Positions 3,770 through 19,554 of a stretch of 64,000 bases of DNA are shown in pieces. The first letter of the stretch is position 1; every line of letters begins with the position of its first letter. This DNA is from Phytoactinopolyspora halotolerans (GTDB lineage Bacteria > Actinomycetota > Actinomycetes > Jiangellales > Jiangellaceae). The notes beneath the pieces were generated by a model. The model did not search any database and was not told where the DNA came from. It saw nothing but the letters and a program-made list of their open reading frames with translations. The position numbers were made by a program, and so were the translations under genes. Where the stretch lies: NCBI RefSeq assembly GCF_010550675.1, contig NZ_JAAGOA010000010.1:1-64000 (forward strand), written 5' to 3'.

Positions 3770-3843
3770 GCGGGTGTAGCTCAATGGTAGAGCCCCAGCC
3801 TTCCAAGCTGGTTGTGCCGGTTCAATCCCGGTCACCCGCTCCA
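3770..3843 (+). tRNA. tRNA-Gly(TCC), integration target of the mobile element
   Basis: The acceptor arms GCGGGTG and CACCCGC pair, the anticodon stem is CCAGC/GCTGG, the anticodon is TCC, the T-loop is TTCAATC, and CCA is encoded. The gene is whole at the left end of the element. Its 3' half is repeated at 18574-18618, so integration rebuilt the tRNA from element sequence. The one difference between the copies is the T-loop base (TTCAATC here, TTCGATC at the right). Confidence 0.95.
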
Positions 3844-3844
3844 C
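3800..3844. repeat. attL, left attachment repeat
   Basis: The 45 nt from the tRNA-Gly anticodon loop to just past its CCA end recur at 18574-18618 with one mismatch. The orientation is the same. The integrase gene begins 15 nt beyond, as is usual for tRNA-targeting tyrosine recombinases. Confidence 0.9.
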
Positions 3845-3858
3845 AGCGAAACAGCAGG

Positions 3859-5121
3859 TCAGAATAGGTCTGGCCCTGATCTTGGCTTCGACCTTCTTTG
3901 TGGTGTTTGCGAGGTTCGTGCGATCCACGTGCGATTAGCTCGTCGGGCTTTCTGGCCCGTGCTGCTGGCTTTGGCCTCGTCGGGGCCGGTTGCCGGACCG
4001 CTCGTGGCGGTGTGCTGCTCGCCGATGGCGGCGCTCAGTCTCCGGGCGATCTCCCGGTCGCGTTCGTTGGTGGCGTGCTGGTAGATCAACGCGGCGCGCA
4101 TGCTGGCGTGCCCCATCCGGTTCATCAACTCGCGCGTGGTGGCACCGGAGAGTGCGGCGAGGTGGTTGCCAGTGTGCCGGAGGTCATGAAACCGGAAGCC
4201 GTCGGGCAGGCCTGCCTTCCGGACGGCCGCCGCCCAGTTCGCGCTGCGGTGCCAGTTCCCGCGCCGCAGCGTCGCGCCCTTCTCCCCTGTGAACAGCAAC
4301 GCTTCCGACGACGACGCGACGTATGTGACCAGATGGCGCTCGAATTCGGGAACCAGGATCGGCGGCAGCGCGACAGTGCGGAATCCCGCTGCGGACTTCG
4401 TCGGGCCCGGGACGAGCTGGCCAGAGTCAAGCTGAGCGAGCTTTCGCGGCACCCGGATGCTCGGCGCTGAAAGGTCGACGTCGCTGCGGCGCAGCGCTAT
4501 AAGTTCACCCCACCGGAGCCCAGTGAACGCGGCCGCGAGGATGAGCAGTCTGAACCGCTCGGGCATGTTGTCCGCCAGCGCGTACACCTGAGGTATCGAC
4601 GCAACGGGCCGTTCCGGTGAGTATTCCTTGTCCGCACTCTTGATCCGGCACGGGTTGCGCTTGATCCGACCGTCGTCCACCGCCGTGTTCATGATCGCCC
4701 GCAGCAGCCGATACGACTTGGCGACCCGGATCTCGCTCCGTCCCGCATCCCGCAACTCGGCGCGCCAGGACCGCACCACCTCCGTCGAGATCTCCGTCAG
4801 CGCTCGCTGCCCAAGGAACGGCTCAAGGTGCAGCCGGAACAGGGACCGGTAAATCTCCCTCGTTCGCTCGCTGACCTCGCGCTCCGCGATCCACCGAGAC
4901 GCATACTCGCTGAACTTCACCTGCCCGAGAAGCGGGTCTATCCACTCGCCGCGAAGAATCTCCGACTCCCGCAACGTGAGCCAGTCGCTGGCCTCGCCCT
5001 CCCGCTCGAACGTGTCCGGAGCATAGCGACGCTGCCCGTCGTCGCCGAGGTAACTGGCCTGGAACCGACCCGACGGAAGCTTGCGCACCCAGCCGAACCG
5101 GCGACGGCCCTGTCGGGCCAT
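3859..5121 (-). CDS. int: Tyrosine recombinase, element integrase
   Basis: Catalyses site-specific recombination between attP and the tRNA-Gly attB. The 420 residues show an N-terminal AP2-like arm-binding segment, a SAM-like core-binding domain (~residues 70-155) and a catalytic domain. Catalytic residues are Arg203 (GLRWGEL), Lys242 (PTKS), His312/Arg315 (HDLRH), His338 (GHAS) and nucleophile Tyr347 (IYQHAT). The ATG at 5121 overlaps the TGA of the excisionase gene (TGATG), which indicates coupling. A GTG one codon earlier is an alternative start. The C-terminus ends 15 nt from attL. Confidence 0.95.
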   Translation of the reverse strand: MARQGRRRFGWVRKLPSGRFQASYLGDDGQRRYAPDTFEREGEASDWLTLRESEILRGEWIDPLLGQVKFSEYASRWIAEREVSERTREIYRSLFRLHLEPFLGQRALTEISTEVVRSWRAELRDAGRSEIRVAKSYRLLRAIMNTAVDDGRIKRNPCRIKSADKEYSPERPVASIPQVYALADNMPERFRLLILAAAFTGLRWGELIALRRSDVDLSAPSIRVPRKLAQLDSGQLVPGPTKSAAGFRTVALPPILVPEFERHLVTYVASSSEALLFTGEKGATLRRGNWHRSANWAAAVRKAGLPDGFRFHDLRHTGNHLAALSGATTRELMNRMGHASMRAALIYQHATNERDREIARRLSAAIGEQHTATSGPATGPDEAKASSTGQKARRANRTWIARTSQTPQRRSKPRSGPDLF

Positions 5122-5324
5122 CACGCCACGACCCCTCGCCGCGTCACGCGAGGTTCGACGGTGCCTTTCTCGACGAACTCGGCGACCGCGCTCTCCGGGA
5201 TACGAACGTGGCGACCCACGTGGACGAACCGGATACGGCGTCCGGCGATCAACCTGCGCGGAAACCTCTCAGTTGTGCCGAGCAACTCAGCGACTTCAGC
5301 CACGGACAGCAAGCGCTCCACCAT
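5121..5324 (-). CDS. xis: Excisionase / small MerR-type HTH DNA-binding protein
   Basis: 67 residues with the layout of the excisionase/AlpA helix-turn-helix family: LSVAEVAELLGTT helix pair, then the wing GRRIRFVHVGRHVRIPESAV. Such proteins bend DNA at the attachment site and direct the integrase toward excision. The ATG at 5324 has GGGGAAGGAA 6-7 nt upstream; longer in-frame starts lack this. The coupled overlap with int supports the role. Confidence 0.85.
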   Translation of the reverse strand: MVERLLSVAEVAELLGTTERFPRRLIAGRRIRFVHVGRHVRIPESAVAEFVEKGTVEPRVTRRGVVA

Positions 5325-5352
5325 CGACGGTTCCTTCCCCCGGCGCCCAGAA

Positions 5353-5372
5353 CTCCCTACGCCTATAGGGAG
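5353..5372 (-). promoter_or_regulatory. Inverted repeat upstream of xis
   Basis: Perfect 7-bp arms CTCCCTA / TAGGGAG separated by 6 nt, 29-48 nt upstream of the xis start. The position suits an operator for the xis-int promoter. The binding protein is unknown; the GntR protein at 14096 is one candidate. Confidence 0.4.
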
Positions 5373-5493
5373 CCCCAAACCCGCGCACATCACCCCGGTC
5401 CAACCGATGCGCCTGGGTTTTCAGATCTCCCGACACCTCTTGGGTGCCGCCGCCGCGCGCACACGGCTGCGTCTCCGATGTGTCTTCGGCAAA

Positions 5494-5526
5494 GCGATAG
5501 CTTCCGCCAGCGGCGGGAGCTATCGC
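5494..5526. other. Strong hairpin in the xis upstream gap
   Basis: A 15-bp stem with a single G-U wobble and a 3-nt AGC loop, built on GCGATAGCT and AGCTATCGC. It sits in the gene-free stretch 5373-5798 between divergent xis and the gene at 5799. It could terminate transcription in either direction or be a recombination or replication site of the element. Nothing else was seen in this gap. Confidence 0.5.
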
Positions 5527-5798
5527 GTGTTGATTTGCGGCCAGCCGTTGACCGCCTTCGACGCCCCCGATGGGGCGAACCGTCCTCGACATTCCAGGGC
5601 GAACGCAGCAGGTGAGCGAGTTCACCCTCCAGGTGCTGTCCGCGACGTCGTAGATGGTGAGGAGCAGCACACGTCCCACGACACCGGCGGGTCCGTCACG
5701 AGCAGACAAGAATAGGCGGGCGTTCACCGCGGTCGGGGCCGAGGGATAAGCGTTGGCATCGCACGTCGCTGTCGTAGGTGCAAGGTAGTGTGCAGCCC

Positions 5799-6653
5799 AT
5801 GGCGCACAGCATGCTGGGTAGTCTGATGAGACAGGCAGCGCAACGAATGCGGCTCGACTTCGAAGCGAGCGCAAATGCCGTAGGCCACAACGCATCAAAG
5901 GGGACCGTGCGAGAAGGCATCTTAAACGGCTATTTGAAGAAATACATGCCGCGGAATGTGCTCCCAGTCGGCAGCGGGGAGGTCATTGATGTGGACGGTG
6001 GGCGTTCACGGCAATGCGACCTCCTTGTCGTCGATCCCTCGCACCCTCCTCTCTATGTGGGGGAAAGCGATGAGCACAGCATCGTTCCGGCCGAGTGCGT
6101 GTATATGGTAATCGAGGTAAAGTCGAACCTTACGGTATCGGAACTGAACCAAGCGTGCGAGAATATTCTCAGCGTGAAACAACGACCGAAGCGGGCATTC
6201 GTGAGACAGCCTATTGGCCAGGTCATCAAACGCTACGGTCGAAGCTACGACTACTTTCCGACCGTGGGTGTTATTTTCGGATACGATGGCGCCTCGCTCC
6301 ACGCCTTGGGCGACGCATTAGCAGAGTGGTCGCTCAATCATCCTTCCGAACATTTGCCGGACAGCGTATGGATATTGGGCAAGGGATGGTTCAACTGGAC
6401 GGGATCGACGGGGCATCCGACCCCCTATCCCGAGCCTGGATCTTCACTGCTTTCATTAAAGCCGTGGAAAGATCAAGATATCTTACTTCCGATGACCCTC
6501 CACCTCCATACGCACCTCGTCAGCGCATTTATGGAACCGCTCGACCTCGTCCCATACGCGGATCGTGATTCTCTAGGCGTATCCAGTAGGAGATGGTTCT
6601 TCCACGATGGCAATTCGGCGGCCGGCACCGTGTCGACGCTCGACTTCGATTGA
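5799..6653 (+). CDS. DUF6602-like protein with PD-(D/E)XK nuclease-type core
   Basis: 284 residues. The segment VGSGEVID (57-64), then QCDLLVVD (Asp74) and YMVIEVKSN (Glu106, Lys108), gives the E...D...ExK order of the PD-(D/E)XK nuclease superfamily as seen in DUF6602-type proteins. Activity is inferred from these residues only. A second half (~150-284) has no recognised motif. The ATG at 5799 was chosen because the domain starts shortly after; no strong ribosome site is visible, and Met5 is an alternative. GC content is lower than in neighbours, which suggests separate acquisition. The likely context is anti-phage or anti-plasmid cargo. It could also be a non-catalytic member. Confidence 0.7.
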   Translation: MAHSMLGSLMRQAAQRMRLDFEASANAVGHNASKGTVREGILNGYLKKYMPRNVLPVGSGEVIDVDGGRSRQCDLLVVDPSHPPLYVGESDEHSIVPAECVYMVIEVKSNLTVSELNQACENILSVKQRPKRAFVRQPIGQVIKRYGRSYDYFPTVGVIFGYDGASLHALGDALAEWSLNHPSEHLPDSVWILGKGWFNWTGSTGHPTPYPEPGSSLLSLKPWKDQDILLPMTLHLHTHLVSAFMEPLDLVPYADRDSLGVSSRRWFFHDGNSAAGTVSTLDFD

Positions 6654-7285
6654 TTGAAAGGTTCACGAGCGATTGGAAGATCAATCGCCTGGTCACGGAG
6701 GAACACTGGGGGCCAACTGCACATGCGGAGCGGATACCCGATCTGTTGCGATCGACTCAGCCATCGGCTCGTGAGCCCGGGGCGGCGTAAGCCGCGTCCA
6801 CGCCTACACCATCCGAGGCTTGCGTGAAGGTCTCCGTGTTCGGCCACGTACTGTTGTGAGGCACACCAAGCCCGCCGTCGAATTCGTTGGGCCAGACACG
6901 TTGGCAAACGAGAGGCCTGAGCCGCTACCGACACGCGTCAGCGGCGGACGGACAACTCACCGGATTTCCCCCTGAATCTCTGGAGAGGCGTGGTGGGGAT
7001 GCGCACCCTTGACACCGTGGTACCGAGCCGCCCGCAACCGCATCAAGGCACGCCCAAGCAGATCGGCATCGGCTACGGGGAGAGCGGGTGGGCCCGCGCG
7101 GCGAGCGCGGTCTGATCTGTAGGTCCTGGGCCATGCGACGTCCGAGACGTGGCCGATGGTCTGAAGACTACTGAACCGGCGGCGGCGCGGCCGCTTAGCC
7201 GCCGCTTTGGAACTGCGGCTCACCCGGCCAAGTGTCCGGTCTCAGGTGCAGAATGGCGGTCTGTGCTTCCGAGACGGAGGTTGGG
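6654..7285. other. Gene-free stretch before the OLD gene
   Basis: About 630 nt with no convincing coding region on either strand; the open frames lack ribosome sites and family features. It contains one terminator-like hairpin near its right end (7179-7205). Confidence 0.5.
7179..7205 (+). terminator. GC hairpin followed by TTT
   Basis: 8-bp arms GCGGCGGC / GCCGCCGC with an 11-nt loop followed by TTTGG, 80 nt before the OLD gene. It may insulate that gene from upstream transcription. Confidence 0.4.
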
Positions 7286-9109
7286 ATGGCGCCGCGGATA
7301 GAGAGCCTCTCGGTCAGAAACCTGCGCTCTGTCGGTGATGAGCGTGTGACCGTCCGATTCCCAGAGAGCGGGGTCCTCGTACTGCTCGGCGAGAACAACG
7401 CCGGAAAGAGCAACGTCACCAGGGCATTGGACATCCTCTTTGGCGACACCTGGCCCGGCAGTCGACGGCTGGAGGACCACGACTTCCACGAACGCGACAG
7501 TGACGGGATCGCGGTCGAGGTCGGCGCTGCCGTGTCCGGCATCCCGTGCACGTACTGCAACGGCGGGGAAGTCGCGTACCTGAGCTGGTCGTACGACCCA
7601 CAGAATCCGTCGGAGGGCGGCAGCCCAGTTACGTACCGCTTCACATGCAGCAACCAGCGTTGCAACAGGTCCTACGTGAAGAACGAGATGCGGTCCGCGC
7701 TCTCTGCCGCTGTCCTCGACGCGGACCGCCGTCTCGACTACCAGCTCAGCTATGCGAGCAAGTACACAATGCTGTCGAAGCTGATGCACCGGTTCCACGA
7801 GCGTCTGCTCGCCGACCCCGTGAGAAAGCAACAGCTTGCCCAGGTCTTCTCCAGCCTGCTCGCGGAGTTCGGCGGTGTACCCGAGTTCGCCGAGTTCAAG
7901 CGGCTCCTCGCCGAGACTGCAGCGGATCTTGGGCAGAACCTGCCATACCGGCTCGACATCGATTTCAGCGCGTACGACCCGAGCAACTTCTTCCGGTCAC
8001 TGCGCATCCACCCGACGCTGTCGGGCGACGTGCGGAACTTCGACGAACTCGGCACGGGTCAGTCGCAGGTGTTGGCGCTCGCGTTCGCTTACGCGTATGC
8101 GATGGCCTACGGCCAGTCCGACGGGACGATCCTAGTCGTCGACGAACCTGAGGCCAACCTCCACCCGCTGGCCCAGCAGTGGCTCGCCACGCGCCTGAAT
8201 GGCCTGGCGGAACCGGGTCTCCAGGTGGTCCTCACGACTCACTCGCCGCACTTCGTCGATCTTGTCCATCCGGAGAACCTGGTCATGGTCCGCAAACAGG
8301 AGAACGGTGCCACCACTGTCATGCAGCGGACACGCGAAGAGTTGCGTCAGCTACTGCTTGGACGGGGCGCCCACCCGGAGCGAACCCATGCCGAAACCAT
8401 CGGTCCCTTCTACGCGGCCGGCGCAACTACGGAGATCATCAGCGGGCTCTTCGCCAGGCGCTGTGTCCTAGTCGAAGGACCGACGGAGGCTCTGGCACTC
8501 CCTGAACTGCTGCGAGCGCGAGGCCTTGATGTCCTTCAAGAGGGTATCGCGGTCGTCTCCGTCGAGGGCATCAGCAACATTGCCAAATGGCACAGGCTCT
8601 TCACCACACTCGGCATCGAGTGCTTTTGCGTGTTCGACACGGACTCGAACAAGACCGGGACGAACGCCAGAGACTTGCTCGCGAATCGCCAAGACATCAT
8701 GGCGGCGCTCGGACACGACGCAGACAAAGCGAAGGCCGAGAACCTCTCGACCCACCCCATCTCGGTCGAGGACGGCTACGCCACGCTGAACCCCAATTTC
8801 GAGGGTGCCTTGGCCGCGCTCTTCGGCGATCGATGGTCGGAGCTCTACGTGGATGCCGCGCCACTCGTGGGTGACTCGAAGTCCCTTCGCGCCCGCTACG
8901 CTGCCCAGCACCTGGGCGGCGGAGACTTCACCGGAGACGCAGCCGCCACGCTCGACGCACTCATCCAGGCGATCCGCGGGAAGCCCGCTGAACAGGCAGA
9001 CGCCAACGAGGCGAAAGAACCCGCGCCGGAACCGTCTGCCCCAGACCAGTCCAGTCCCGACTCCGTGGAGACGAGCGCTCCAACGACAGCTGACGAACCG
9101 CCTTTCTGA
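7286..9109 (+). CDS. OLD-family ATP-dependent endonuclease with a four-cysteine insert
   Basis: 607 residues. An ABC-type ATPase comes first: Walker A GENNAGKS (35-42), signature-like GTGQSQ (256-261), Walker B ILVVDEPEANLHP (282-294) and TTHSPH (317-322). A TOPRIM nuclease domain follows: LVEGPTE with Glu397, and Asp451/Asp453 in FDTDS. Proteins of this class include P2 OLD and GajA. Between the first ATPase strands lies CTYC (Cys88, Cys91) followed by CSNQRC (Cys121, Cys126), a possible zinc ribbon not typical of the family. The ATG at 7286 has GGAGG 5 nt upstream. No UvrD-like GajB helicase follows, so this is a stand-alone OLD, not Gabija. The acidic Pro/Glu-rich tail (~570-607) is probably disordered. 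Likely role: anti-phage or anti-plasmid defence. Confidence 0.85.
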   Translation: MAPRIESLSVRNLRSVGDERVTVRFPESGVLVLLGENNAGKSNVTRALDILFGDTWPGSRRLEDHDFHERDSDGIAVEVGAAVSGIPCTYCNGGEVAYLSWSYDPQNPSEGGSPVTYRFTCSNQRCNRSYVKNEMRSALSAAVLDADRRLDYQLSYASKYTMLSKLMHRFHERLLADPVRKQQLAQVFSSLLAEFGGVPEFAEFKRLLAETAADLGQNLPYRLDIDFSAYDPSNFFRSLRIHPTLSGDVRNFDELGTGQSQVLALAFAYAYAMAYGQSDGTILVVDEPEANLHPLAQQWLATRLNGLAEPGLQVVLTTHSPHFVDLVHPENLVMVRKQENGATTVMQRTREELRQLLLGRGAHPERTHAETIGPFYAAGATTEIISGLFARRCVLVEGPTEALALPELLRARGLDVLQEGIAVVSVEGISNIAKWHRLFTTLGIECFCVFDTDSNKTGTNARDLLANRQDIMAALGHDADKAKAENLSTHPISVEDGYATLNPNFEGALAALFGDRWSELYVDAAPLVGDSKSLRARYAAQHLGGGDFTGDAAATLDALIQAIRGKPAEQADANEAKEPAPEPSAPDQSSPDSVETSAPTTADEPPF

Positions 9110-9264
9110 CAACTGCGCCAGGGAGGCGCAGGTCGGCCTTTGCCCCTGTCATCGGCTAGATGAGGACGGCCTCGGCGACGCTGCGGAATCGTACGAGGGC
9201 GATACATCTCAAGCTTGTCGTCGTCTTACGGAGAACTTGGTTCTTCTCTCACTTCCATCCTTTC

Positions 9265-9363
9265 CGCTCGGACCACGGTCCGAGAGACATGGACAGAACC
9301 GCTCCACGTCTTAAACCTGCCCGGTCCGAGATATCAGTTCCTCCGATCCGCTCGAACCCCGGG
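9265..9363 (+). other. Repeat-rich gap upstream of the relaxase genes, candidate oriT
   Basis: The 365-nt gap 9110-9474 has no gene. It contains an 8-bp perfect inverted repeat CTCGGACC-AC-GGTCCGAG (9267-9284), a second copy of CGGTCCGAGA (9276-9285 and 9322-9331), and a longer imperfect repeat CCGCTCGGACCACGG / CCGCTCGAACCCCGG (9265-9279 and 9348-9362). MobF relaxases usually nick next to such repeats close to their own gene. Assignment as oriT is inference. Confidence 0.4.
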
Positions 9364-9474
9364 ACACGTCTGGCACCTCGAGCTCCGGCGATTCGGTTGT
9401 GCGCGTTCCTGGGGCTCCCTGTCTGGTAGAGGGCTCTGGTTTCAGCGCCCGGCCTACTGGCGGGAGGAGCTGCC

Positions 9475-9936
9475 ATGAATTCGATACGTGATGCTGCGGA
9501 TTCGATCCGTGTGGTGCTGCATGAGCATACCGAGTGGGACCTGTCGGAGCTCTACGCCGCACTCGGGGACGTTGACGAGTTGACGCGTGGCGTGCGATCC
9601 CTGTCTCGGCGGATTCGGTTGCACGTGGAGGCCCTGGCCAAGACGCCTGGGTTGCGGGTCGACGAGCTGGGCGAACCCACCGACCCCAGTACCTTGGCGC
9701 GGGAGGCCGCCAGGTCTCTGGCTGACGCCGATACCCACATGGCGAGCGCGAACCGGCAGTTCGGCGTGGCGTGGTCGCGGGTTGGGCGGCTCTACGTCCC
9801 CGACCACGCCCAGCCGGTGACACGCGCCGCACAGACACGTCGCGTCCTCTCGGCGCAATCCCCTGTCAGCGGGATTCTCCCAGCCTCTACGCGTCGGCCC
9901 CCACGGCGACGCCCGGACCTGCCGCCGAGCATGTGA
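9475..9936 (+). CDS. Small helical protein upstream of the relaxase, unknown
   Basis: 153 residues, no family recognised. Residues 1-115 are predicted mostly helical; the tail (~120-153) is rich in Arg and Pro. The ATG has GGAGGAG about 6 nt upstream. It ends 20 nt before the relaxase gene, so the two are probably one operon. Position, helical content and basic tail would fit an accessory relaxosome protein, but this is inference from context only. Confidence 0.65.
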   Translation: MNSIRDAADSIRVVLHEHTEWDLSELYAALGDVDELTRGVRSLSRRIRLHVEALAKTPGLRVDELGEPTDPSTLAREAARSLADADTHMASANRQFGVAWSRVGRLYVPDHAQPVTRAAQTRRVLSAQSPVSGILPASTRRPPRRRPDLPPSM

Positions 9937-9955
9937 CCGCGGGGGCGCCGCGGTC

Positions 9956-12900
9956 ATGATGTCGCTGAAGGAGTTGCACGCCGGTGACGGCTACACCTAT
10001 CTGCTTCGCCACGTGGTCGACGCCGAGGGCATGGCCGGGACGGTGTCGCCGCTGTCGCGGTACTACGCCGAGTCCGGTAACCCACCCGGATGGTGGATGG
10101 GCACCGGCCTCACCGGACTCGCCCACGGCAGCGGAATCGACGCTGGGTCAGTCGTGACTGAGGCGCAGATGGAGCGGCTGTTCAAACACGGCACCGACCC
10201 CGCCACCGCCGTACCCCTCGGTCGCCGGTTCGCGCAACCGAAGTCGTGGCGCGAGCGCGCAGACGCCCGCATCCACGCACTACCCACCGACCTGACCGGG
10301 CACGAGCGGGCGACCCGTATCGCGGCGATCGAGACGCAGGAACGCGACCGCCCGGCACGGCGGCCGGTGGCCGGGTTCGACTGCGTGTTCTCCCCACCGA
10401 AATCGGTGAGCGCGCTCTGGGCGCTCGCACCCGATCAGGTGCGCGCGCAGATCGAGCACGCCCACCACGACGCGCTCGCCGAGGTGTTGCGGGTGATCGA
10501 GCGTGACGTCGCCCGCACCCGCATCGGCACCCGTGGTGTCGCCCAGGTCGACACCCGCGGGGTCATCGCGACCGCGTTCGATCACTACGACTCCCGCGCC
10601 GGTGACCCGCAACTACACACCCATGTGGTGATCGCCAACCGTGTCCAGGGCCCGGACGGGTCCTGGCGCACCTTGGACTCGCGAGGGTCGTTGTTCCCGG
10701 CCGCGGTCGCGATGAGCGAGTTGTACGACACCCTGCTCGCCGACCACCTCACCCAAGAGCTGGGTGTCGGCTGGGAGCGGCGCGGCACACCACGCAAACC
10801 GAAGAACCAGTCCTGGGAGATCACCGGCATCCCCGACCAGCTGATCACAGAGTTCTCCCAACGCGCCCACGGCATCGAAGCGGTCAAAGACGATTTGATC
10901 GCCGCTTACCGGCAGGCGCACGGCCGCGACCCGGACGACGCCACGATCCTCCGGCTGCGACAGCAAGCCACCTACGCCACCCGCCCAGGCAAGCAGTTTC
11001 GCTCACTCGCCGAGATGAGCACCGACTGGCGCGCACGGGCGACTCACGTGCTCGGGAAAGATCCCGGCCAGTGGGCCGCTTCGCTCATCGATCGCGCGGC
11101 GGCTTCGCCGACGCACCCCAACTCCGTTGCGGGTTTGGTGGATCGACTCGCTACCGAGGCGCTCACCGAGTTGAGCACCGAGCGCTCGACCTGGCGCACC
11201 TGGAACATCCGGGCCGCCGCCGCGCGTGTCTCCATGCCCTACCGACTTCCCACGACATCGGACCGGGATTCGTTGATCGAGGCGATCACCCGCCGGGTGA
11301 TTGAACTGTCGGTCTGCATCACCCCACCCGAGCTCGCCGACACACCGAAAGTGTTCCGCCGCGCCGACGGCACCTCAGCGTTCCAACGCTCCCACGCCGA
11401 CGTCTACACCACCACGACCATTCTCACCGCCGAAAACCACCTGCTCGCCGCTGCCGAGTCCCTTACCGCGCCCGTGGTCGACGACGACGTCATACCGAAG
11501 ACGGTCACCGCGTCGACGTCGCGGCAAAGCACCCTGTCCGACGAGCAAAGCTCCGCTGTGGTAGCGATCGCGATTAGCGGCCGAGTGGTGGACGTACTGG
11601 TCGGGCCCGCAGGCAGCGGCAAGACCACCACCCTCGCCGCCCTGCGGAGTGTGTGGGAGGACCAGCACGGTGACGGTTCCGTCGTCGGTTTGGCTCCGTC
11701 CGCGGCAGCCGCCGACGTGCTGCGCGAGAGCCTGGGTATCGCGACCGAGAACACCACGAAATGGCTGCACGAATCCACCGGACCAGCAGCGGAACACCGG
11801 TTGCGTCGCGCCGCGCACATGCGTGAACGCCGCGCCGCCGCCCTCGCCGCCGGCAGGTCGACCGCGCCCTTCGACGCTGCACTCGCCCAGCTCAACGAAG
11901 CGACGCAGCGTTGGCGATTCCACGCAGGACAGCTCGTCATCGTCGACGAGGCATCCCTGGCCGGAACACTCACCCTCGACACGCTGCATGCGCAAGTCGA
12001 ACGGGCTGGGGCGAAGCTGCTGCTCGTCGGCGATCCAGCGCAGTTGTCCGCCGTCGACGCGGGCGGCGCATTCGGCCTCCTGGCCCGCCACCTCGGCGAC
12101 CATGCTCCGCAGCTGACCGGCGTGCGGCGGTTCACCCATGCCTGGGAACGCGACGCCACCATCCGCCTCCGCCAAGGTGACACCGACGTCGTCGACACCT
12201 ATCTCCAGCACGACCGGGTCCATTCCGGTGACAGCGAAGAGGCCGTTGACGCTGCGTACGACGCCTGGAGGGTCGACATGGCCGCCGGCCTCACGTCGTT
12301 GTTGATCGCCGCGGACGCGTCCACCGTGCGGGACCTCAACGCCCGCGCCCGCGCCGATCGCGTGACCGCCGGTGACATCGAACCCGACGGTGTCGCGTTG
12401 CATGACGGCACCACGGCGGGCCGTGGGGACAGGGTCGTGACCCGCCGCAACAACCGGAATCTGGTGACCGGGGCAAGGTCGTGGGTGAAGAACGGCGACC
12501 ACTGGACCGTCCAGCACCGCCACGACGACGGCTCCCTCACCGTCACCCGCGCCGCTGGCGGCCATGCAGTCACGCTCCCGGCCGCATATGTGGCCGAGCA
12601 TGTCGAACTCGGCTACGCCACCACCACCCACCGAGCACAGGGCGCCACCGTCGACACCGCCCACACCATCGTCGACCCCATCGCCACGACACGGGAATCG
12701 CTGTACGTGGGGATGACCCGCGGGCGGCACGCCAACACCGCCTACGTCATCACCGACCACGACGACGAGCTCCCCGACGGTCTGGTCCGCGACGCCGGCG
12801 GCGTCCTCGTCGACGTGATCCGCCGCACAGGTGCCGAGCTGTCCGCCCGCGAAACCATCACCGCCGAGCAGGACCACGCCACCACCATCGCCCGCCTCGC

Positions 12901-13609
12901 CGCCGAGTACGACACCCTCGCCCGCGAAGCCGCCACCCACCACTGGACCGGCCTCCTCAGCACCTACCCACTCCCCGACGCCGACGCGGCGGGGTCACCT
13001 GCCTACGCCGCACTCGTCTCCGCGATGCGCCGCGCCGACGCCCACGGCCTCAACCCCACGACGCTCCTACCGCGCCTGGCGGACCGGGACGAACTCCACG
13101 CCAACGACGACCCGCTCGACCTGCTTGGCCGTCGCCTGGAAGAGGTCACCGATCGTGCCGCCGCCACCGGGCGCGCCCGCACGCGCGGACGCATGATCGT
13201 CGGGCTCATCCCCGCTGCCACCCACGTCGTCGACCCCGAGATGCGGAGAGCGCTCGACGAAAGAGAGGCCCTCATCGAGCACCGAGCCGCAGCGTTGGTC
13301 CAGCAAGCCATCACTGAACGGTCACCCTGGCTCACCGGCATCGGTCCTGCACCGCCAAACCCGCAGCAGCGGAAACATTGGATGCGCTGTGTCACCACCA
13401 TCGCCGCCTACCGCGAACGCCACGAAATCACCGGCCCGGACGCCCTCGGCGATCAGCATCGCCGTGACGACTGGGCCTACCGCAGCGACCGACGGCGCGC
13501 CGCCGAAGCACTCCACGCTGTCCGACACGCTTCTGCAGCTGTGGACACGCTGGCTGGTGGAATCGCCCATGAGAGGAGGCCCATCCGCATCAGCGGCCCT
13601 GCCCTCTAG
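9956..13609 (+). CDS. MobF-type conjugative relaxase with C-terminal helicase
   Basis: 1217 residues. The TrwC-type relaxase domain is N-terminal: His210 in AFDHYDS and His221/His223 in QLHTHVV form the metal-binding histidine triad. Candidate nucleophile tyrosines lie near residues 13-15 and 37-38. A superfamily 1 helicase (RecD2/TraI-like) follows with Walker A GPAGSGKT (550-557), Walker B IVDEAS (~661), GDPAQLSAV, and the C-terminal THRAQGATVD and GMTRGRH motifs. It nicks the transfer origin, stays attached to the strand and unwinds it. ATG at 9956; Met2 is an equivalent start. No coupling protein is adjacent. GC is very high, unlike the defence cargo. Confidence 0.93.
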   Translation: MMSLKELHAGDGYTYLLRHVVDAEGMAGTVSPLSRYYAESGNPPGWWMGTGLTGLAHGSGIDAGSVVTEAQMERLFKHGTDPATAVPLGRRFAQPKSWRERADARIHALPTDLTGHERATRIAAIETQERDRPARRPVAGFDCVFSPPKSVSALWALAPDQVRAQIEHAHHDALAEVLRVIERDVARTRIGTRGVAQVDTRGVIATAFDHYDSRAGDPQLHTHVVIANRVQGPDGSWRTLDSRGSLFPAAVAMSELYDTLLADHLTQELGVGWERRGTPRKPKNQSWEITGIPDQLITEFSQRAHGIEAVKDDLIAAYRQAHGRDPDDATILRLRQQATYATRPGKQFRSLAEMSTDWRARATHVLGKDPGQWAASLIDRAAASPTHPNSVAGLVDRLATEALTELSTERSTWRTWNIRAAAARVSMPYRLPTTSDRDSLIEAITRRVIELSVCITPPELADTPKVFRRADGTSAFQRSHADVYTTTTILTAENHLLAAAESLTAPVVDDDVIPKTVTASTSRQSTLSDEQSSAVVAIAISGRVVDVLVGPAGSGKTTTLAALRSVWEDQHGDGSVVGLAPSAAAADVLRESLGIATENTTKWLHESTGPAAEHRLRRAAHMRERRAAALAAGRSTAPFDAALAQLNEATQRWRFHAGQLVIVDEASLAGTLTLDTLHAQVERAGAKLLLVGDPAQLSAVDAGGAFGLLARHLGDHAPQLTGVRRFTHAWERDATIRLRQGDTDVVDTYLQHDRVHSGDSEEAVDAAYDAWRVDMAAGLTSLLIAADASTVRDLNARARADRVTAGDIEPDGVALHDGTTAGRGDRVVTRRNNRNLVTGARSWVKNGDHWTVQHRHDDGSLTVTRAAGGHAVTLPAAYVAEHVELGYATTTHRAQGATVDTAHTIVDPIATTRESLYVGMTRGRHANTAYVITDHDDELPDGLVRDAGGVLVDVIRRTGAELSARETITAEQDHATTIARLAAEYDTLAREAATHHWTGLLSTYPLPDADAAGSPAYAALVSAMRRADAHGLNPTTLLPRLADRDELHANDDPLDLLGRRLEEVTDRAAATGRARTRGRMIVGLIPAATHVVDPEMRRALDEREALIEHRAAALVQQAITERSPWLTGIGPAPPNPQQRKHWMRCVTTIAAYRERHEITGPDALGDQHRRDDWAYRSDRRRAAEALHAVRHASAAVDTLAGGIAHERRPIRISGPAL

Positions 13610-13615
13610 GGCAGG
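13598..13615. terminator. Hairpin at the end of the relaxase gene
   Basis: Perfect 8-bp arms CCTGCCCT / AGGGCAGG with a 2-nt loop. It spans the relaxase stop codon and lies between convergent genes (the HTH gene ends at 13659), so it could serve both directions. No U-run is visible. Confidence 0.45.
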
Positions 13616-13658
13616 CGCATCCTCAGAGGTGGATCAGCACAGCGCCGGGGGTCCGGAG

Positions 13659-13856
13659 TCAGGGCTTTCGTCGCTGGCTGGGCCGGTCCTGGTGCCACGT
13701 CTTGATTGTCGATGCCCACCACAACGGGCCTACCGCCGGCCGGAAATCCGGGTCCGGCATCTGACCGCGGCTGAGGTACGTGCGCACCGCGTTCGGGGTG
13801 ACCCCAATGTATGCGGCAACCTCTGTAACGCTCCAGATCTCGTCGTCCTCGGCCAC
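13659..13856 (-). CDS. Small helix-turn-helix DNA-binding protein
   Basis: 65 residues. The pattern WSVTEVAAYIGVTPNAVRTYL is a MerR/excisionase-type helix-turn-helix, followed by a wing-like segment with GPLWWAS. The GTG at 13856 was chosen because AGGGTGG lies about 8 nt upstream and the domain starts directly after; an ATG at 13970 would add a low-complexity Arg-rich leader. It faces the relaxase gene tail to tail. It resembles a second excisionase or a repressor of the element's transfer genes; which is not clear. Confidence 0.7.
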   Translation of the reverse strand: MAEDDEIWSVTEVAAYIGVTPNAVRTYLSRGQMPDPDFRPAVGPLWWASTIKTWHQDRPSQRRKP

Positions 13857-14095
13857 GGCAAGCCACCCTAGTATGCTGCGTTGCGCTGTACTGCTAATCG
13901 CAGTATCGTGACGGTGCCGCCGCCTTGGACCGTCTCCATGTGATGCCGGCCGTTGGCGACGACGCGTCATAACCGAATAGGCGGGACCGCCCGGAGTCAG
14001 CAGCTCCGAACGGTCCCTTGATCCCCACCAGAACCAGCCTGGAGGAGACCCGTGAGTACGCTACCCAACCATGCCCGGTTGTGCGGTGACCGGCC

Positions 14096-14356
14096 ATGAC
14101 CCACGCCTCGCCCGAACCGTTCGACCCGCATACTGGCCCGCCTGGCTACGTCTACCATAAGCTCGCCGACCACATCGCTACGCTCATCAATGCAGGTACG
14201 TTGAAGCCCGGCACGCGGCTCCCCGCCGAGGCGGAGCTGGCACGCACGTACGACGTCTCCGTCGGGACGCTGCGCCACGCCGTTCGCGACCTCTGCGCAC
14301 GCGGGCTGGTCGTCAAGATCCCCGCCAAGGGCACCTACGTCGCTGGAAGTAGGTGA
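14096..14356 (+). CDS. GntR-type winged-helix repressor without effector domain
   Basis: 86 residues, essentially a bare GntR winged helix: YHKLADHIATLI, GTRLPAEAELARTYDVSVGTLRHAV and a wing ending KGTYVAG. No ligand-binding domain is present. Small GntR proteins of this kind (KorSA of pSAM2-type elements) control transfer and excision genes in actinobacterial integrative elements, which suits its place here. It lies 7 nt before the next gene, probably in one operon. The ATG at 14096 has no strong ribosome site. Confidence 0.8.
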   Translation: MTHASPEPFDPHTGPPGYVYHKLADHIATLINAGTLKPGTRLPAEAELARTYDVSVGTLRHAVRDLCARGLVVKIPAKGTYVAGSR

Positions 14357-14362
14357 CCGGCG

Positions 14363-14761
14363 ATGGAACAACATACGTTCACCTGCACCGCGACCCGAAA
14401 TGACCGAAGCTGGTTCATCCAATGCGATCAGCTCCCGGCCGCTTGCACCATAGTGAGGATCCTCACCCAAGCCGCTCCGCAGATGAAGCGAGCGCTCGCC
14501 GCCAGCCTCGCCGTGCCCGAAGACCAGGTCGCCGTTGACGTCCGGCCTGTCTTACCCACGGCCGTTCACGAGCACCTCAACCTTGCCAAACAACTCCGCC
14601 GGACGGCAGCTAAGGCCAATCACGCAGCAGCCGTCCACACACGCACAGCCGCGCACATCCTCAACAAAGAGGGACTCTCACTCCGGGACATCGGAACCGC
14701 CCTCGGAGTTTCCCATCAACGCGCCCATCAGTTACTCAGTCCGAAGCAGGTGAAGTCATGA
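14363..14761 (+). CDS. Protein with HicB-like N-terminus and C-terminal HTH, function unknown
   Basis: 132 residues. The N-terminal ~60 residues (strand-rich, WFIQCDQLP, then an Ala-rich helix) resemble HicB-type antitoxin folds. The C-terminal part has LSLRDIGTALGVSHQRAHQLL, a sigma-region-4-like helix-turn-helix. It follows the GntR gene by 7 nt. No HicA toxin is adjacent, so it is more likely a DNA-binding regulator than an antitoxin. The family assignment is by eye. Confidence 0.6.
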   Translation: MEQHTFTCTATRNDRSWFIQCDQLPAACTIVRILTQAAPQMKRALAASLAVPEDQVAVDVRPVLPTAVHEHLNLAKQLRRTAAKANHAAAVHTRTAAHILNKEGLSLRDIGTALGVSHQRAHQLLSPKQVKS

Positions 14762-14856
14762 CGACAGCACCGTGGACGCGAGTACCGGCACGGCGGAGCA
14801 ACACTCGTGAAGTCGCGCTATCGATCCACGACTCCCGATCCAAGTACACTGCTCGC

Positions 14857-15069
14857 ATGAGCGGAGAACGCGAGGAGTTGGCGCGGCTCGTCGAGGAGAT
14901 CCCCGATGAGCAGGTTCCGCGTGCGCTCGCAGAAATGCGCAAGCACCTCCGCCCCGTCCGAAACCGTCCATGGCCGCCCGCGTGGTTCGGGAGCGCACCA
15001 GGCGACGGCACCGCAGTCGGGGCGAACAGCGAAGAGCACCTCGCCGACGGGTTCGGCCAGTACAAGTGA
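14857..15069 (+). CDS. VapB-like antitoxin
   Basis: 70 residues, MSGEREELARLVEEIP onward, with the RPWPPAWFG motif common in antitoxins paired with actinobacterial PIN toxins. Its TGA (15067-15069) overlaps the GTG start of the toxin. The ATG at 14857 is chosen over an upstream in-frame ATG at 14758, which overlaps the previous gene. TACACT lies 6 nt before this ATG and could be a -10 box, giving a leaderless mRNA. The C-terminus (ADGFGQYK) would be the toxin-binding tail. Confidence 0.75.
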   Translation: MSGEREELARLVEEIPDEQVPRALAEMRKHLRPVRNRPWPPAWFGSAPGDGTAVGANSEEHLADGFGQYK

Positions 15070-15485
15070 TCGTATGCGACACGGGCCCGTTGGTCGCGGC
15101 AGCATTGTCGAAGGACCCGGATCATCACCGATGCGTAGAACTATTCACCGGCCTACACCTCGCCCAGCGCGAGATGATCATTCCCAGCCCGGTAATCGCT
15201 GAAGTCGGGTACCTCCTGGCAACCAAGGCCAGCCCGCACGTTGAGGCTGGCTTTCTAGAGTCGCTGGCCAACGAAGACTTCCACGTTGAAGAACTCAAGG
15301 TCAGCGACTACTCGCGCATGGCCGAACTCGTCGAGCAGTACGCCGACCTCCCACTAGGGACAACCGACGCCGCGGTCCTCACAGTGACAGAGAGACTCAA
15401 TATTCAAGAGCTAGCGACGCTCGATCTGCGACATTTCAACGTGGTCAGACCCAAGCACGTCAAAGCACTGACGTTGTTGCCGTAG
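15066..15485 (+). CDS. VapC-like PIN-domain ribonuclease toxin
   Basis: 139 residues. The acidic PIN residues are present: Asp5 (VCDTGPLV), Glu46 (VIAEVGYL), Asp101 (GTTDAAV) and Asp120 (TLDLRHF). VapC toxins cleave tRNA or rRNA when freed from VapB. Start is GTG at 15066, in a GTGA overlap with the antitoxin stop. It probably stabilises the element and may also act on infection. Confidence 0.88.
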   Translation: MIVCDTGPLVAAALSKDPDHHRCVELFTGLHLAQREMIIPSPVIAEVGYLLATKASPHVEAGFLESLANEDFHVEELKVSDYSRMAELVEQYADLPLGTTDAAVLTVTERLNIQELATLDLRHFNVVRPKHVKALTLLP

Positions 15486-15645
15486 ACGGAGGAGATTCGG
15501 CTCTCACGAAATCCGTGAGGGATCTCCGAAGCTTGGCCGCATGCGCACTCTTGGAGTGGCCAAGCGAGGCGAGGGCGACTGAGAACACCATAATATTAGG
15601 CAATGACCCCCGAGCCGCCCACCCACCGAATGGAGAGAGCCACCC

Positions 15646-16581
15646 ATGCCTCTAGTGCCTGTCGCCCTCAGCCTCCTGCACCGTTCAGACGGCGCGATCC
15701 TTTGCAACCCGACCATAGTTGACATAAATGGAGAACACGAGCTTATCGGGGTTGCCCAGAAGGCACTAGAACAACTTGGTTTTGAATATCCAGACATAGA
15801 ACTCTACTATGCGGGCGTCGCTATCGGGCTTCCAACAGCGGACGATGATCCATGGAGTCCGATTTCCCGCGCACTACCCGTCGTTGTCGAGGAGAACGGC
15901 CGATTCCTGTGGGAAACGTTCCGGCCCGCCCTCACGTACAAGCAACTTGTCACGACAGCAGAATCGGGATTTTGTGCAGATCCGGGCGAGGGGATTTCTC
16001 TAATCCTGACTGGCGGATACGGTGGTCTGGAGAGCATAGATTGGCCACTCTTCCTCCACGCATTGGAGTCCACGCGAGACCACCTCATAGTACTGGGGGC
16101 AATTTACGGCGGCGTATCGGCCGTTCGCGACATATGCACAGGCGCGAAAAAGGCATTCGACGGAGGCATCTCAGCTATCCGCCGGCTCACCACACATAAC
16201 TCGCCCGCTGATCCATTAAGCATTGCGCTTGCAGTCGACCGTTCCATCGAGCTACGTCTCGATGTCGTAGCGAGAGGGTTGGACCTCTCGAATCAAGACA
16301 CGGCCGCACTCCTGGATGTCCTCGGATTCATCCCGACCAATGAAAGGCATATATATACCCAAGGCGCTACTCGGCTATGTAGACTAAATAGAATTCTCTA
16401 TGAATCGAGCGCAAGATCAGGAGCAATAGATCAAGAGGAACTCAAACAATATCTTACAGAGCTACGGCGAGATATTGACGTTTTAATGGAGGAAGTGGCT
16501 AAGAACAAGAGCTCACACCTGGACCAACCCGGCGCCCCGATCGAGCACCTACTTGGGCGCGGTTGGGAACCTCCTCGGTAA
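15646..16581 (+). CDS. Unrecognised 311-aa protein
   Basis: No family recognised. The first ~110 residues look like a mixed alpha/beta domain. Residues ~145-165 (HLIVLGAIYGGVSAV) are hydrophobic and could be a short membrane or buried segment. The C-terminal ~100 residues are helical and charged. ATG at 15646 follows GGAGAGA by about 10 nt. GC is visibly low and codons such as ATA, AGA and CTA are common, unlike the relaxase, so it is recently acquired cargo. Its place between VapBC and the Abi_C gene suggests defence, without direct evidence. Confidence 0.6.
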   Translation: MPLVPVALSLLHRSDGAILCNPTIVDINGEHELIGVAQKALEQLGFEYPDIELYYAGVAIGLPTADDDPWSPISRALPVVVEENGRFLWETFRPALTYKQLVTTAESGFCADPGEGISLILTGGYGGLESIDWPLFLHALESTRDHLIVLGAIYGGVSAVRDICTGAKKAFDGGISAIRRLTTHNSPADPLSIALAVDRSIELRLDVVARGLDLSNQDTAALLDVLGFIPTNERHIYTQGATRLCRLNRILYESSARSGAIDQEELKQYLTELRRDIDVLMEEVAKNKSSHLDQPGAPIEHLLGRGWEPPR

Positions 16582-16990
16582 GAAGCTCCGCTGCATCACT
16601 CGCATCCGGACGAGCCTGCTCGGACCGAGAGCAAGCGAGAACCTGCCGGGCGTCCAATTGGATATAGCCAACCATAGAGCGCGGCCCAAACAGCTACGGA
16701 CACTGTTCACGCTGGTCAACATCAGAGCGCTCGCCGCGGTCATGGATCAACACCGTTGGCACTGGTGTGGTATCAGGCGAACTGGGCCACGGCCGCGTTG
16801 TCAATAAAAGATCGTTGGGGTCACGAAGGGCGATGACACACGGGCCGCAATGGATCTCCTCACCGCAAAGCCGCAAGGGCAGCATAGGGGAGTGAGCTTG
16901 ATTCATGTATTCCTCGGTAACACGGCATTCGTGCACCACACAACACAATTGGAGCCTGGAGTTGAATCCGATCAACCGCTCCTGCACGGC
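16582..16990. other. Gene-free stretch
   Basis: About 400 nt between the convergent ends of the genes at 15646 and 16991. Short open frames on both strands have no ribosome site or family features. No repeat or strong hairpin was noticed. Confidence 0.4.
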
Positions 16991-17449
16991 CTATGCGTGC
17001 CCGGCTGCTCCCCGGCCATCTCCGCTTCCATTCTGATACTCGGTTTCGCCTCGCAAGTGCGCCAGCAGGTTCCGGCCAAGCGTCTGCCAGTCCGTCCAGG
17101 GCACGCCGCTCCAGTCGGCCAGCATTTGGCCGGACTCCTCGATGGACCACCCCTCGTTCCAGACATAAGGTTCGAGATTCGGCCCATGTGACGCCCAAGC
17201 TGCCAGGAGTGATCCACGACGCCGCTCGCTCCGACCGATTACGGCGTGGTACGGATCGGCAGCGCCGGTAGCAAGTACGCGCCGGAATCGATCCATATGA
17301 GGGAACCTCCGCCAGGCGTAGCCAAATGCAAATTCGAACTTCAGTTTGTCGGCAGTGATGGCGTACACACCCTCATACAGCACCGCCAGGGCAAGTCCCT
17401 GCGCGACGTAGGACTCCTGATTGGCGTTCGACAACGTGGGCTGCGCCAT
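16991..17449 (-). CDS. Unrecognised 152-aa protein divergent from the Abi_C gene
   Basis: Globular-looking sequence rich in aromatic residues (YVWNEGWS, GVPWTDWQTLG), with a helical N-terminal half and a low-complexity Gly/Ala tail. No known family recognised. ATG at 17449. It is transcribed away from the Abi_C gene with 89 nt between starts, so both probably share a control region. It might be a partner of the Abi protein or separate cargo. Confidence 0.55.
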   Translation of the reverse strand: MAQPTLSNANQESYVAQGLALAVLYEGVYAITADKLKFEFAFGYAWRRFPHMDRFRRVLATGAADPYHAVIGRSERRRGSLLAAWASHGPNLEPYVWNEGWSIEESGQMLADWSGVPWTDWQTLGRNLLAHLRGETEYQNGSGDGRGAAGHA

Positions 17450-17538
17450 GACCTGACAATACTCAGCCGGAAGAGCTTTGCGCCTCTCAACGCGCCATGT
17501 GGGCGCACCGCAGGTGACGGCTCAGGGCATAATGAACC

Positions 17539-18354
17539 ATGCCCAGCCCTCCGGTCAGTAGCGAGATCGCCGCCGCGCTGGGGAAGTTCTTCTTCGCTGG
17601 GGCCGGGCCGAGCCACAGCACTCTCACTAGAGCGTTCCTCAACACTGGCTACGGGCAGGACGATCCCTACGACGAGGCCGCCGGCGCGCCCAATAAGCAG
17701 CAGCGCGTACTGGCTGTCGTGAACGCAGCGCGCCGACGGCCTGCTGGGGCCCGGCGGCTGGTTGACGAGCTCCTCACTGCCCTTCGCATGGAGGGATGCC
17801 TCGAAGACCCGTCCTTGACGAGCCAACGGCAGGCGCTTGGCCGTGCGTTGTCCAGGGCTGGTTGGGCGCTCGACGCCGACGGCTACATGACAACGGTCGG
17901 AGTGATAAACCTTGAGACCGGCGGACGTTCAGCCCTTGACGAGCAGCTTGCTCGGCTCCAGCGAAACAGCGAGGACCCCGCTGCCCTTCTGGGCGGTGCC
18001 AAGGACCTCCTCGAGTCAATCAGCAAGTTCGTGCTGGAAGAACGGATGATGCTGCCTGACCGCCGGCTCGATTTCGATGAAGCACTCCACCTGGCCCTAG
18101 ACCAACTCGGCTTGCTACCCAAACTGGTTGATACGGAGGTGCCTGGCGCTAAGCAGCTCCGGGCCATATACCAATCAGCTAAGACGACCGCGTCCACCGT
18201 CAACGAGCTTCGCAACCTACAGGGCACCGGTCACGGGAGAACACTTCCAACTGGCGTAAACGCGGAAGCTGGTCGCTACGTGATCCGGGAAGCCGCCCAT
18301 GTGGCCGAACTTATGCTGGCTGCCCACGACCGGCAAATGGGGCGATCAGAGTAG
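17539..18354 (+). CDS. Abortive-infection-type protein with Abi_C C-terminus
   Basis: 271 residues. The segment LRNLQGTGHGR (224-234) followed by an Ala-rich helix to the end (EAAHVAELMLAAHD) matches the abortive infection C-terminal domain (Abi_C). The N-terminal 200 residues are mostly helical and unassigned. Abi_C domains are found in phage-exclusion proteins, so a growth-arrest role during infection is the likely function; the mechanism is unknown. ATG at 17539. It is the last gene before attR. Confidence 0.75.
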   Translation: MPSPPVSSEIAAALGKFFFAGAGPSHSTLTRAFLNTGYGQDDPYDEAAGAPNKQQRVLAVVNAARRRPAGARRLVDELLTALRMEGCLEDPSLTSQRQALGRALSRAGWALDADGYMTTVGVINLETGGRSALDEQLARLQRNSEDPAALLGGAKDLLESISKFVLEERMMLPDRRLDFDEALHLALDQLGLLPKLVDTEVPGAKQLRAIYQSAKTTASTVNELRNLQGTGHGRTLPTGVNAEAGRYVIREAAHVAELMLAAHDRQMGRSE

Positions 18355-18573
18355 TCCCGTTGGAAGCGCTGCAATTCTCTCGGCCTGCCCGTCGTAGTCC
18401 GAGGCACGAACAGACTACGAGCCGTGCTGGGCGCATAGCGAACGGGTACCAGGAGTCGCGCCCTACGTCGTGCGATTCGCGTGCGATAAGACCCGGCCAA
18501 TCGCGAGCTGGCGCGGACACCCACGGTCACTGTCCGCGCTGATCAGCACCCCAGTGCTCGCCTCCTGGCCGTT

Positions 18574-18618
18574 CTTCCAAGCTGGTTGTGCCGGTTCGAT
18601 CCCGGTCACCCGCTCCAC
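18574..18618. repeat. attR, right attachment repeat
   Basis: Copy of the tRNA-Gly 3' half from CTTCCAAG to CCA plus one base, with a single difference from 3800-3844. Bases upstream of it do not form the 5' half of a tRNA, so it is an attachment scar rather than a second tRNA gene. Confidence 0.9.
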
Positions 18619-19318: not shown

Positions 19319-19554
19319 TACTCCTCTCGCCGGACGTGGGCCGAGCGCAGCACGTTGATCGATATCCGGGTGACCACCGCCGAAAGGTGCGCCTTGGTCG
19401 ACGTGGGTTGCGACGGCGTGGTTGCAGAGCGCAGCCAGGTCTCATGGACCGCGTCCTCGGCCTCGCTCGCGCTGCCGAGGATCCGGTAGCCGATCGAGAA
19501 CAGCAACGGGCGCAGCTCCTCGAAATCCTCCGTCAGCTCGGTTCCCGTCTGAGC
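19318..19554 (-). pseudogene. ECF sigma factor fragment (SigJ/ECF41-like region 2)
   Basis: Reads ELTEDFEELRPLLFSIGYR, then ILGSASEAEDAVHETWLR and AHLSAVVTRISINVLRSA, the region 2 core of ECF41-type sigma factors. It breaks off at RREEY, exactly where the integrase remnant begins. Region 4 and the SnoaL-like tail are absent, and no good start codon exists between the preceding stop (19555) and the domain. It was probably cut by the older insertion or a later deletion. Confidence 0.8.

Follow-up and report, generated by a model that had tools for sequence, protein, structure and literature searches.

A stand-alone OLD-family nuclease of Phytoactinopolyspora halotolerans ends in a predicted disordered tail, the tip of which resembles that of the host's SSB. 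The gene lies in the window, which is the whole stretch of 64,000 nucleotides that was analysed. On the evidence of sequence comparison, we consider it reasonably probable that this Class 1-like OLD protein, carried as cargo of a tRNA-Gly element, mimics the SSB tail to dock onto host SSB-interacting proteins. The data suggest that a four-cysteine OLD protein with an SSB-like tail may plug into the host's own DNA-repair machinery. The tail was overlooked by an earlier, sequence-only reading of this DNA, and it is a more striking and informative feature than the cysteine cluster which that reading described.

Identification of the OLD nuclease

The features of the OLD gene are as follows.

7286..9109, + strand: OLD-family ABC-ATPase/Toprim protein, 607 aa (Pfam AAA_15/AAA_21 and OLD-like_TOPRIM, PADLOC, AlphaFold model)
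7388..7411, + strand: Walker A, GENNAGKS, residues 35-42 (sequence)
7547..7558, + strand: first cysteine pair, Cys88-x2-Cys91 (sequence)
7646..7663, + strand: second cysteine pair, Cys121-x4-Cys126 (sequence)
8474..8644, + strand: Toprim acidic motifs, E397 (VEGPTE) to D451/D453 (FDTDS) (sequence)
8978..9106, + strand: C-terminal tail of residues 565-607, with predicted disorder starting at 569 (pLDDT)
9089..9109, + strand: SSB-like tip ADEPPF plus stop codon (sequence)

The frame at 7286-9109 (+) is unbroken and encodes 607 aa. Its ATG at 7286 is preceded by GGAGG, and the frame is also open from an alternative upstream start, a GTG at 7232. Pfam identified AAA_21 (8.7e-23), AAA_15 (1.4e-22) and OLD-like_TOPRIM (6.8e-18), and the top PADLOC models were Old (9.7e-48) and GajA (1.8e-42). 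The protein thus has the N-terminal ABC ATPase and the C-terminal Toprim part of the OLD family, with the motifs of both intact. In a 40-row alignment, G35, N37, N38, G40, K41 and S42 of Walker A, E287-P288-E289 of Walker B, and E397, D451 and D453 of the Toprim part were invariant. The signature region reads LGTGQ (residues 255-259).

The AlphaFold model, made from a 34-sequence alignment, had a mean pLDDT of 85.7 and a pTM of 0.82. Its top PDB match was the Thermus OLD protein 6p74 (Z 23.2, rmsd 5.7, 481 aligned residues). GajA (8x5i) ranked 15th (Z 18.0, rmsd 5.6, 476 aligned residues), and the matches ranked near it included many SMC/Rad50 heads, mostly covering the ATPase part. The protein gave no match to the OB-fold SSB family PF00436 at E 0.1. 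It is the bearer of an SSB-like tail and not an SSB, and the predicted model is accounted for by the ATPase and Toprim parts.

Genetic context

The OLD gene lies between two 45-nt direct repeats. The parts of the element that matter here are listed below.

3800..3844, + strand: left att repeat, 45-nt direct repeat at the 3' end of tRNA-Gly (3770-3843)
3859..5124, - strand: tyrosine integrase of the element (PF00589, 1.1e-13)
9475-9936, + strand: 153-aa ORF downstream of the OLD gene, too short for a UvrD/Rep-type helicase
9956..13609, + strand: MobF/TrwC relaxase-helicase of the element (PF08751, 2.7e-88; NF041492, 247.1 bits with a cut-off of 100)
18574..18618, + strand: right att repeat, 45-nt direct repeat, 98% identical with one mismatch

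Because the gene is flanked by the tRNA-Gly repeats and an integrase is encoded inside them, it is cargo of a 14.8-kb integrated element (3800-18618). The minus strand of the element carries the tyrosine integrase and a small HTH protein. The further genes encode a DUF6602 protein, the OLD protein, the MobF relaxase, a GntR-type regulator, a PIN-domain protein and an Abi_C protein. The element is probably mobilizable, and a role of the OLD gene as its defence cargo is probable. The same-strand genes downstream of OLD are the 153-aa ORF and the MobF relaxase, and there is no UvrD-type helicase. The proposal of the sequence-only reading that this is a stand-alone OLD nuclease, with no GajB-type helicase behind it, is therefore supported by the Pfam and PADLOC hits, the fold match and the neighbouring gene content.

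Other genes of this region were also noted. A second integrase-like ORF, resembling the first, is located just beyond the element (18699-19445, -). The PIN-domain protein (4.8e-10) has an overlapping small ORF upstream (window 14758-15069 and 14970-15485), and the two are possibly a VapBC-like toxin-antitoxin pair. The DUF6602 protein upstream of OLD (5778-6653) showed PADLOC likeness to PD-(D/E)XK (4e-31) and NucC-type effector (4e-22) models. It was rejected as an operon partner of OLD, with 632 bases between the DUF6602 stop and the OLD start. In an all-against-all BLAST of the loci (at least 28.5% identity), the 25 largest groups of alike neighbouring genes that were listed did not include DUF6602 either.

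The tail and its tip among OLD relatives

The final helix of the model stops at residue 564, and pLDDT is below 50 for the last 39 residues (569-607). The tail contains many acidic residues and the protein ends in TTADEPPF. This is the form of the SSB-Ct tip, acidic-x-P-F at the extreme C-terminus. The E. coli SSB tip is DDDIPF, and its terminal phenylalanine is described as buried in a pocket of each partner, where basic residues hold the carboxyl group together with the acidic residues of the tip (PMC10164576).

In the first alignment, SSB-type endings were found in L002 (LEEPPF), L006 (SDIPF), L007, L008, L009 and L010, and none in L003, L004, L005 and L011. A genome scan with the alignment returned at least 300 relatives, and the best 79 loci from named records were used. 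L019 (Jiangella asiatica) and L034 were dropped as duplicates of L002 and L006, respectively, on agreement of length and the last 22 residues. Among the 78 OLD rows whose frame is complete, the window protein included, 18 had the tip. Short or cut frames (L028, L033, L047, L051, L053, L056, L062, L063, L069 and L080) were omitted from this count. For the other ORFs of at least 150 aa in the same 79 loci, the background rate was 2 in 1228 (Fisher p 2e-21, with OLD rows that are related to one another and many background ORFs that are not genes). One of these two background ORFs lies in the locus of a tip-bearing OLD.

The tip was missing in 60 of the 78 rows, including L017 and L018, the sister pair of the window protein, so OLD function in general does not depend on it. 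A frameshift as the cause of the tipless ends of L017 and L018 was rejected, as a three-frame translation just downstream contained no tip. L017, L018 and L048, which all belong to the cysteine-bearing clade described below, have short tipless tails although the SSBs of their hosts end in DEPPF tips. A 62-row tree was built after rows below 26% identity and seven poorly aligned rows were omitted and the last 45 residues were removed. On this tree the tip required 13 gains or losses, against a shuffled mean of 15.8, and 29 of 500 shuffles were as low. Since 13 changes are hardly fewer than 15.8, the tip is barely clustered on the tree. A tip so often gained and lost could, from this pattern, be either a tuned accessory or something that the protein can do without. 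No tip was found in P2 Old, in the 18 viral relatives whose frame is complete, or in three further Bacillota relatives besides L035.

Ahead of the tip, three close relatives carry DPW, a motif of actinobacterial SSB linkers, in their OLD tails. L014 has five DPW copies ahead of EQPPF, L015 has one (DPDPWGPDEPPF), and L016 has two plus one SPW (DPWRDPSPWDAAPDPWADEEPPF). The tail of the window protein has the tip and no DPW.

Specificity of the tip in whole genomes

Many of the background ORFs are not genes, and therefore whole genomes were also searched. For the host family (22 genomes), the DNA was searched for [DE][DE]PPF followed by a TAA or TGA stop. There were 29 matches in 21 of the 22 genomes and 0 when the word was read backwards. 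By eye, 18 of the 29 were SSBs, two were OLDs (those of the window and of G008), seven were DUF222-type proteins and two were others. Pfam found DUF222 in six of the seven DUF222-type proteins and nothing in the seventh, and HNH in one of the two others. The main SSB of the host is absent from the 29 because its stop codon is TAG. DUF222-type proteins ending in DDPPF or DEPPF were observed at the actinobacterial loci L157, L166, L169, L170, L171, L173 and L174. We take these tip-bearers to be members of the 13E12/HNH family.

The Bacteroidota control (21 genomes; word [DE][DE]-hydrophobic-PF-stop) gave 30 forward and seven backward matches. By itself, the word therefore discriminates less well in Bacteroidota. 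The 30 matches comprised 16 SSBs (identified by an HMM built here), seven frames below 60 residues, which is about as many as the backward control predicts, and seven other long frames. The last group consisted of two DUF3127 proteins, a DnaB, the G759 OLD, a second G759 protein, a 4Fe-4S protein and one Pfam-less protein. Counting frames above 100 residues (n = 23), there were 16 SSBs, two DUF3127 proteins, one DnaB and one OLD. Seven genomes with tip-bearing OLDs had 11 word matches and two backward ones. These 11 were four SSBs, two OLDs, a UvrD-type helicase, a RecT protein and three short frames.

SSB-like tips were accordingly seen on a DnaB helicase, two DUF3127 proteins, a UvrD-type helicase and RecT (loci L179, L177, L197, L210 and L215). 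From these endings, an SSB-like tip may have been added repeatedly to proteins of DNA metabolism. A Pfam-less protein of 276 aa that ends in SSIEDDLPF is encoded 3.4 kb from a tip-bearing OLD (L060:8881-9711, -). By eye it resembles nucleoside-deoxyribosyltransferase/TIR-like proteins.

Agreement between OLD tips and host SSBs

The main SSB of Phytoactinopolyspora halotolerans ends in GGGGAAEEPPF and the OLD protein in TADEPPF. The second SSB of the host has no tip. The residue before PF was compared in 16 same-genome pairs of OLD and SSB, with L014 and L016 left out. Where a genome has several SSB matches (G000, G008, G707, G751, G757, G758 and G759), a tip-bearing one was chosen. For the G753 pair, the last residue of both proteins was removed to bring PF into register. 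The residue was identical in 13 of the 16 pairs (shuffled mean 4.6, p 2e-5); of the three mismatches, two were I for V and one was L for I. When the actinomycete P-type pairs were set aside, agreement was 10 of 13 (p 0.0035).

In the L023 genome, the sole SSB found ends in EDLPFD and the OLD in DDDLPFE, each with one acidic residue past PF. The linkers ahead of the tip in the SSBs of the host and its family contain DPWAT as well as NDPWG or NDPWA. Part of the match with the host could come from base composition and shared phylogeny. The extra residue shared in L023 and the DPW in the tails are, as far as the sequences go, hard to explain by composition.

The four-cysteine cluster

The OLD protein has cysteines at positions 88, 91, 121, 126, 393, 446 and 448. 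The first two pairs lie exactly where the sequence-only reading had placed them, between Walker A (35-42) and LGTGQ (255-259). Among the 84 aligned rows in which the region is covered, the window protein included, the pattern C-x1-2-C...C-x2-4-C was found in eight and was absent from the other 76. The carriers are the window protein, L002 (G008), L014 and L016 (Nocardioides), L015 (Blastococcus), L017 (Speluncibacter), L018 (Rhodococcus) and L048 (Pseudonocardia). They form one actinobacterial clade in the tree (support 100/100), and all four cysteines are kept in all eight members. The first pair is CxxC in seven and CxC in one (L002), and the second is CxxxxC in six and CxxC in two (L002 and L048). 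Judged from the alignment, the pattern exceeds chance. The knuckle reads CPYCGGEV in L018 and CPYCSGGEV in L015; we take both to resemble zinc-ribbon knuckles.

The cluster had been described as an insert, and this label did not hold. The region is 85 residues long in the window protein and 80-81 residues in the nearest cysteine-free rows (L005, L022 and L028). Because the lengths are nearly the same, the cysteines sit on a shared beta-hairpin, which they decorate, and an inserted domain was rejected. In the model, strands 95-103 and 115-121 would be paired antiparallel; Cys88/91 stand just before the first and Cys121/126 at or after the end of the second, which would therefore bring the cysteine pairs side by side. 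The sequence-only reading had also raised the possibility that the insert is common among OLD proteins without a zinc site. This applies to the hairpin, which is common, and not to the cysteines, which are restricted to the clade. Its remark that P2 Old is not known for a zinc ribbon at this place was borne out, for the aligned P2 Old lacks cysteine pairs such as those of the clade. Zinc binding by the C4 cluster is likely. Overall, the cysteines are a genuine trait of this clade and moderately interesting, and the SSB-like tail is the stronger finding.

The L006 OLD protein (taken as the same as L034) has another cysteine-rich stretch in the same hairpin region, with the different pattern CEC...C...CxxH. 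It is possibly an independent metal site.

Distribution and neighbours of the relatives

With strict cut-offs and the host's own genome included, OLD relatives were found in 2 of 22 family, 2 of 393 class and 8 of 396 phylum genomes. A Bacillota search with L035 as the query covered 398 genomes and gave the three further relatives mentioned above, which stand outside the 78-row count. Viral contigs gave no match when scanned with the single OLD protein. When scanned with the alignment, they gave 19 distant relatives, 18 of them complete and the 19th cut. Phage records contained one match to the OLD query, which was unannotated. There were 39 plasmid matches; L003 and L004 were taken from these, and both are tipless.

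Type III restriction-modification (R-M) genes stand beside relatives in L003 (by annotation) and in L037, L038, L049 and L050 (by similarity). Eco57I-type methylases were found at L023 and L030, a type I specificity subunit at L025, a methylase at L009 and FokI at L035. Counting examined loci only, an R-M gene adjoins 5 of 18 tip-bearing rows (L009, L023, L025, L030 and L035). A role of OLD proteins on restriction-cut DNA ends is possible from this gene arrangement. L014 has a SIR2/HEAT protein in its neighbourhood, and an Abi_C protein stands directly beside the OLD gene in L017 (L017:5025-5858), the latter similar to the Abi_C-domain protein of the window element (17539-18354). In L086 and L091, a UvrD helicase gene follows directly downstream, as in Gabija, and the OLD protein has no tip.

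Proposed mechanism and alternative explanations

We propose that one or more SSB-interacting proteins of the host, such as helicases, RecO, PriA or RecG, receive the OLD tip in their pocket for the SSB-Ct. Docking would bring the OLD nuclease to exposed DNA ends or gaps, or deliver a host helicase there. The borrowed helicase or end-processing enzyme would replace GajB, perhaps acting as GajB does for GajA. The C4 cluster would hold one zinc ion and stiffen or extend the hairpin for contact with DNA or another subunit. A wider version of this proposal is put forward tentatively, and we are less inclined to accept it than to doubt it. A branch of Class 1 OLD proteins would have repeatedly gained look-alikes of the host SSB tail, linker motifs included, retuned them to each host, and recruited repair helicases or nucleases as stand-ins for GajB; other mobile nucleases (DUF222/HNH) would probably have done likewise. 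If this is true, repeated acquisition of SSB tails would explain why OLD systems of a single gene can function with no partner encoded beside them.

Other explanations of the tail were considered. It might be an internal brake that lies over the DNA-binding groove of the OLD protein itself and gives way when DNA or a partner pushes it aside. A tail that is predicted to be disordered, is rich in acidic residues and comes after the final Toprim helix would suit this role, and the SSB tip is described as transiently binding SSB's own DNA-binding domain (PMC7145534). However, a brake leaves the match with the host SSB, the shared extra residue of L023 and the DPW copies unexplained, and we regard it as unlikely. 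Still less likely is a decoy, by which the activated OLD protein would compete with SSB for its partners and poison repair and replication in an abortive response. Cells contain SSB in abundance, and a decoy present in few copies would therefore be a poor competitor; the nuclease and ATPase motifs, intact and conserved, also speak against it. The tip evidence itself fits a decoy as it fits docking, and P2 lysogens carrying old are reported to kill recB and recC mutant hosts (PMC7049728).

We give little credence to the idea that the C4 cluster is the functional sensor, of redox state or nucleic acid, and that the tail is incidental. The constancy of the four cysteines in 8/8 clade members, 3/8 of which lack the tip (L017, L018 and L048), is in its favour, but the tip also appears in distantly related OLD lineages that have no such cluster, and the sensing role is putative. 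A chance or compositional likeness of the tip is scarcely credible. The motif is short and proline codons are favoured in high-GC hosts, and in Bacteroidota the word occurred seven times backwards, with 7/30 forward matches ending frames below 60 residues. These points are outweighed by the difference between 18/78 OLD rows and 2/1228 background ORFs, by the 0 backward matches in the 22 actinobacterial genomes, and by the 16/23 SSBs among the Bacteroidota matches in frames above 100 residues. Docking onto host SSB-interacting proteins is the explanation that we favour.

A review lists as open whether Class 1 OLD proteins defend alone and whether they have protein partners (PMC10568477). A host-matched SSB-like tail is a concrete candidate answer, and it would hinge on one phenylalanine. 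If docking is true, a host-range barrier is predicted, as the tip would have to fit the partners of the host. SSB-like tails also hint at a general trick that could let mobile nucleases tie into the DNA repair of their hosts.

Comparison with known systems

Among the papers that searches of the open-access PMC literature brought up, none was seen to report an SSB-like tail on an OLD protein. The window protein shares its domain order, fold, Toprim motifs and helicase-less single gene with Class 1 OLD proteins (Thermus scotoductus OLD, 6P74, and P2 Old). P2 Old differs in having neither the SSB-like tip nor the C4 cluster. GajA of Gabija (Class 2 OLD, PDB 8X5I) has the same ABC-ATPase/Toprim fold, but the window OLD has no adjacent UvrD-type GajB gene. 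The Toprim region of Class 2 has an extra helical domain that Class 1 lacks; of the two solved structures, 6p74 gives the model the higher score. OLD nucleases are described in a review as turning active upon RecBCD inhibition (PMC12904381), and a Gabija study describes a similar RecBCD logic (PMC12407980).

With the bacterial SSB tail, the window OLD shares the acidic tip ending in PF, the predicted disordered linker and the residue match with the host SSB. DPW is shared by its three close relatives and not by its own short linker. The tail sits on a nuclease in the window, whereas in SSB it sits on an OB-fold protein. The OLD effector of retron Eco8 (Class 3) also has a link to SSB, as phage SSB is described as its trigger (PMC10568477, PMC12904381). 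In retron Eco8, SSB is thought, according to these sources, to be sensed via the msDNA, whereas the window OLD itself has the SSB-like tail.
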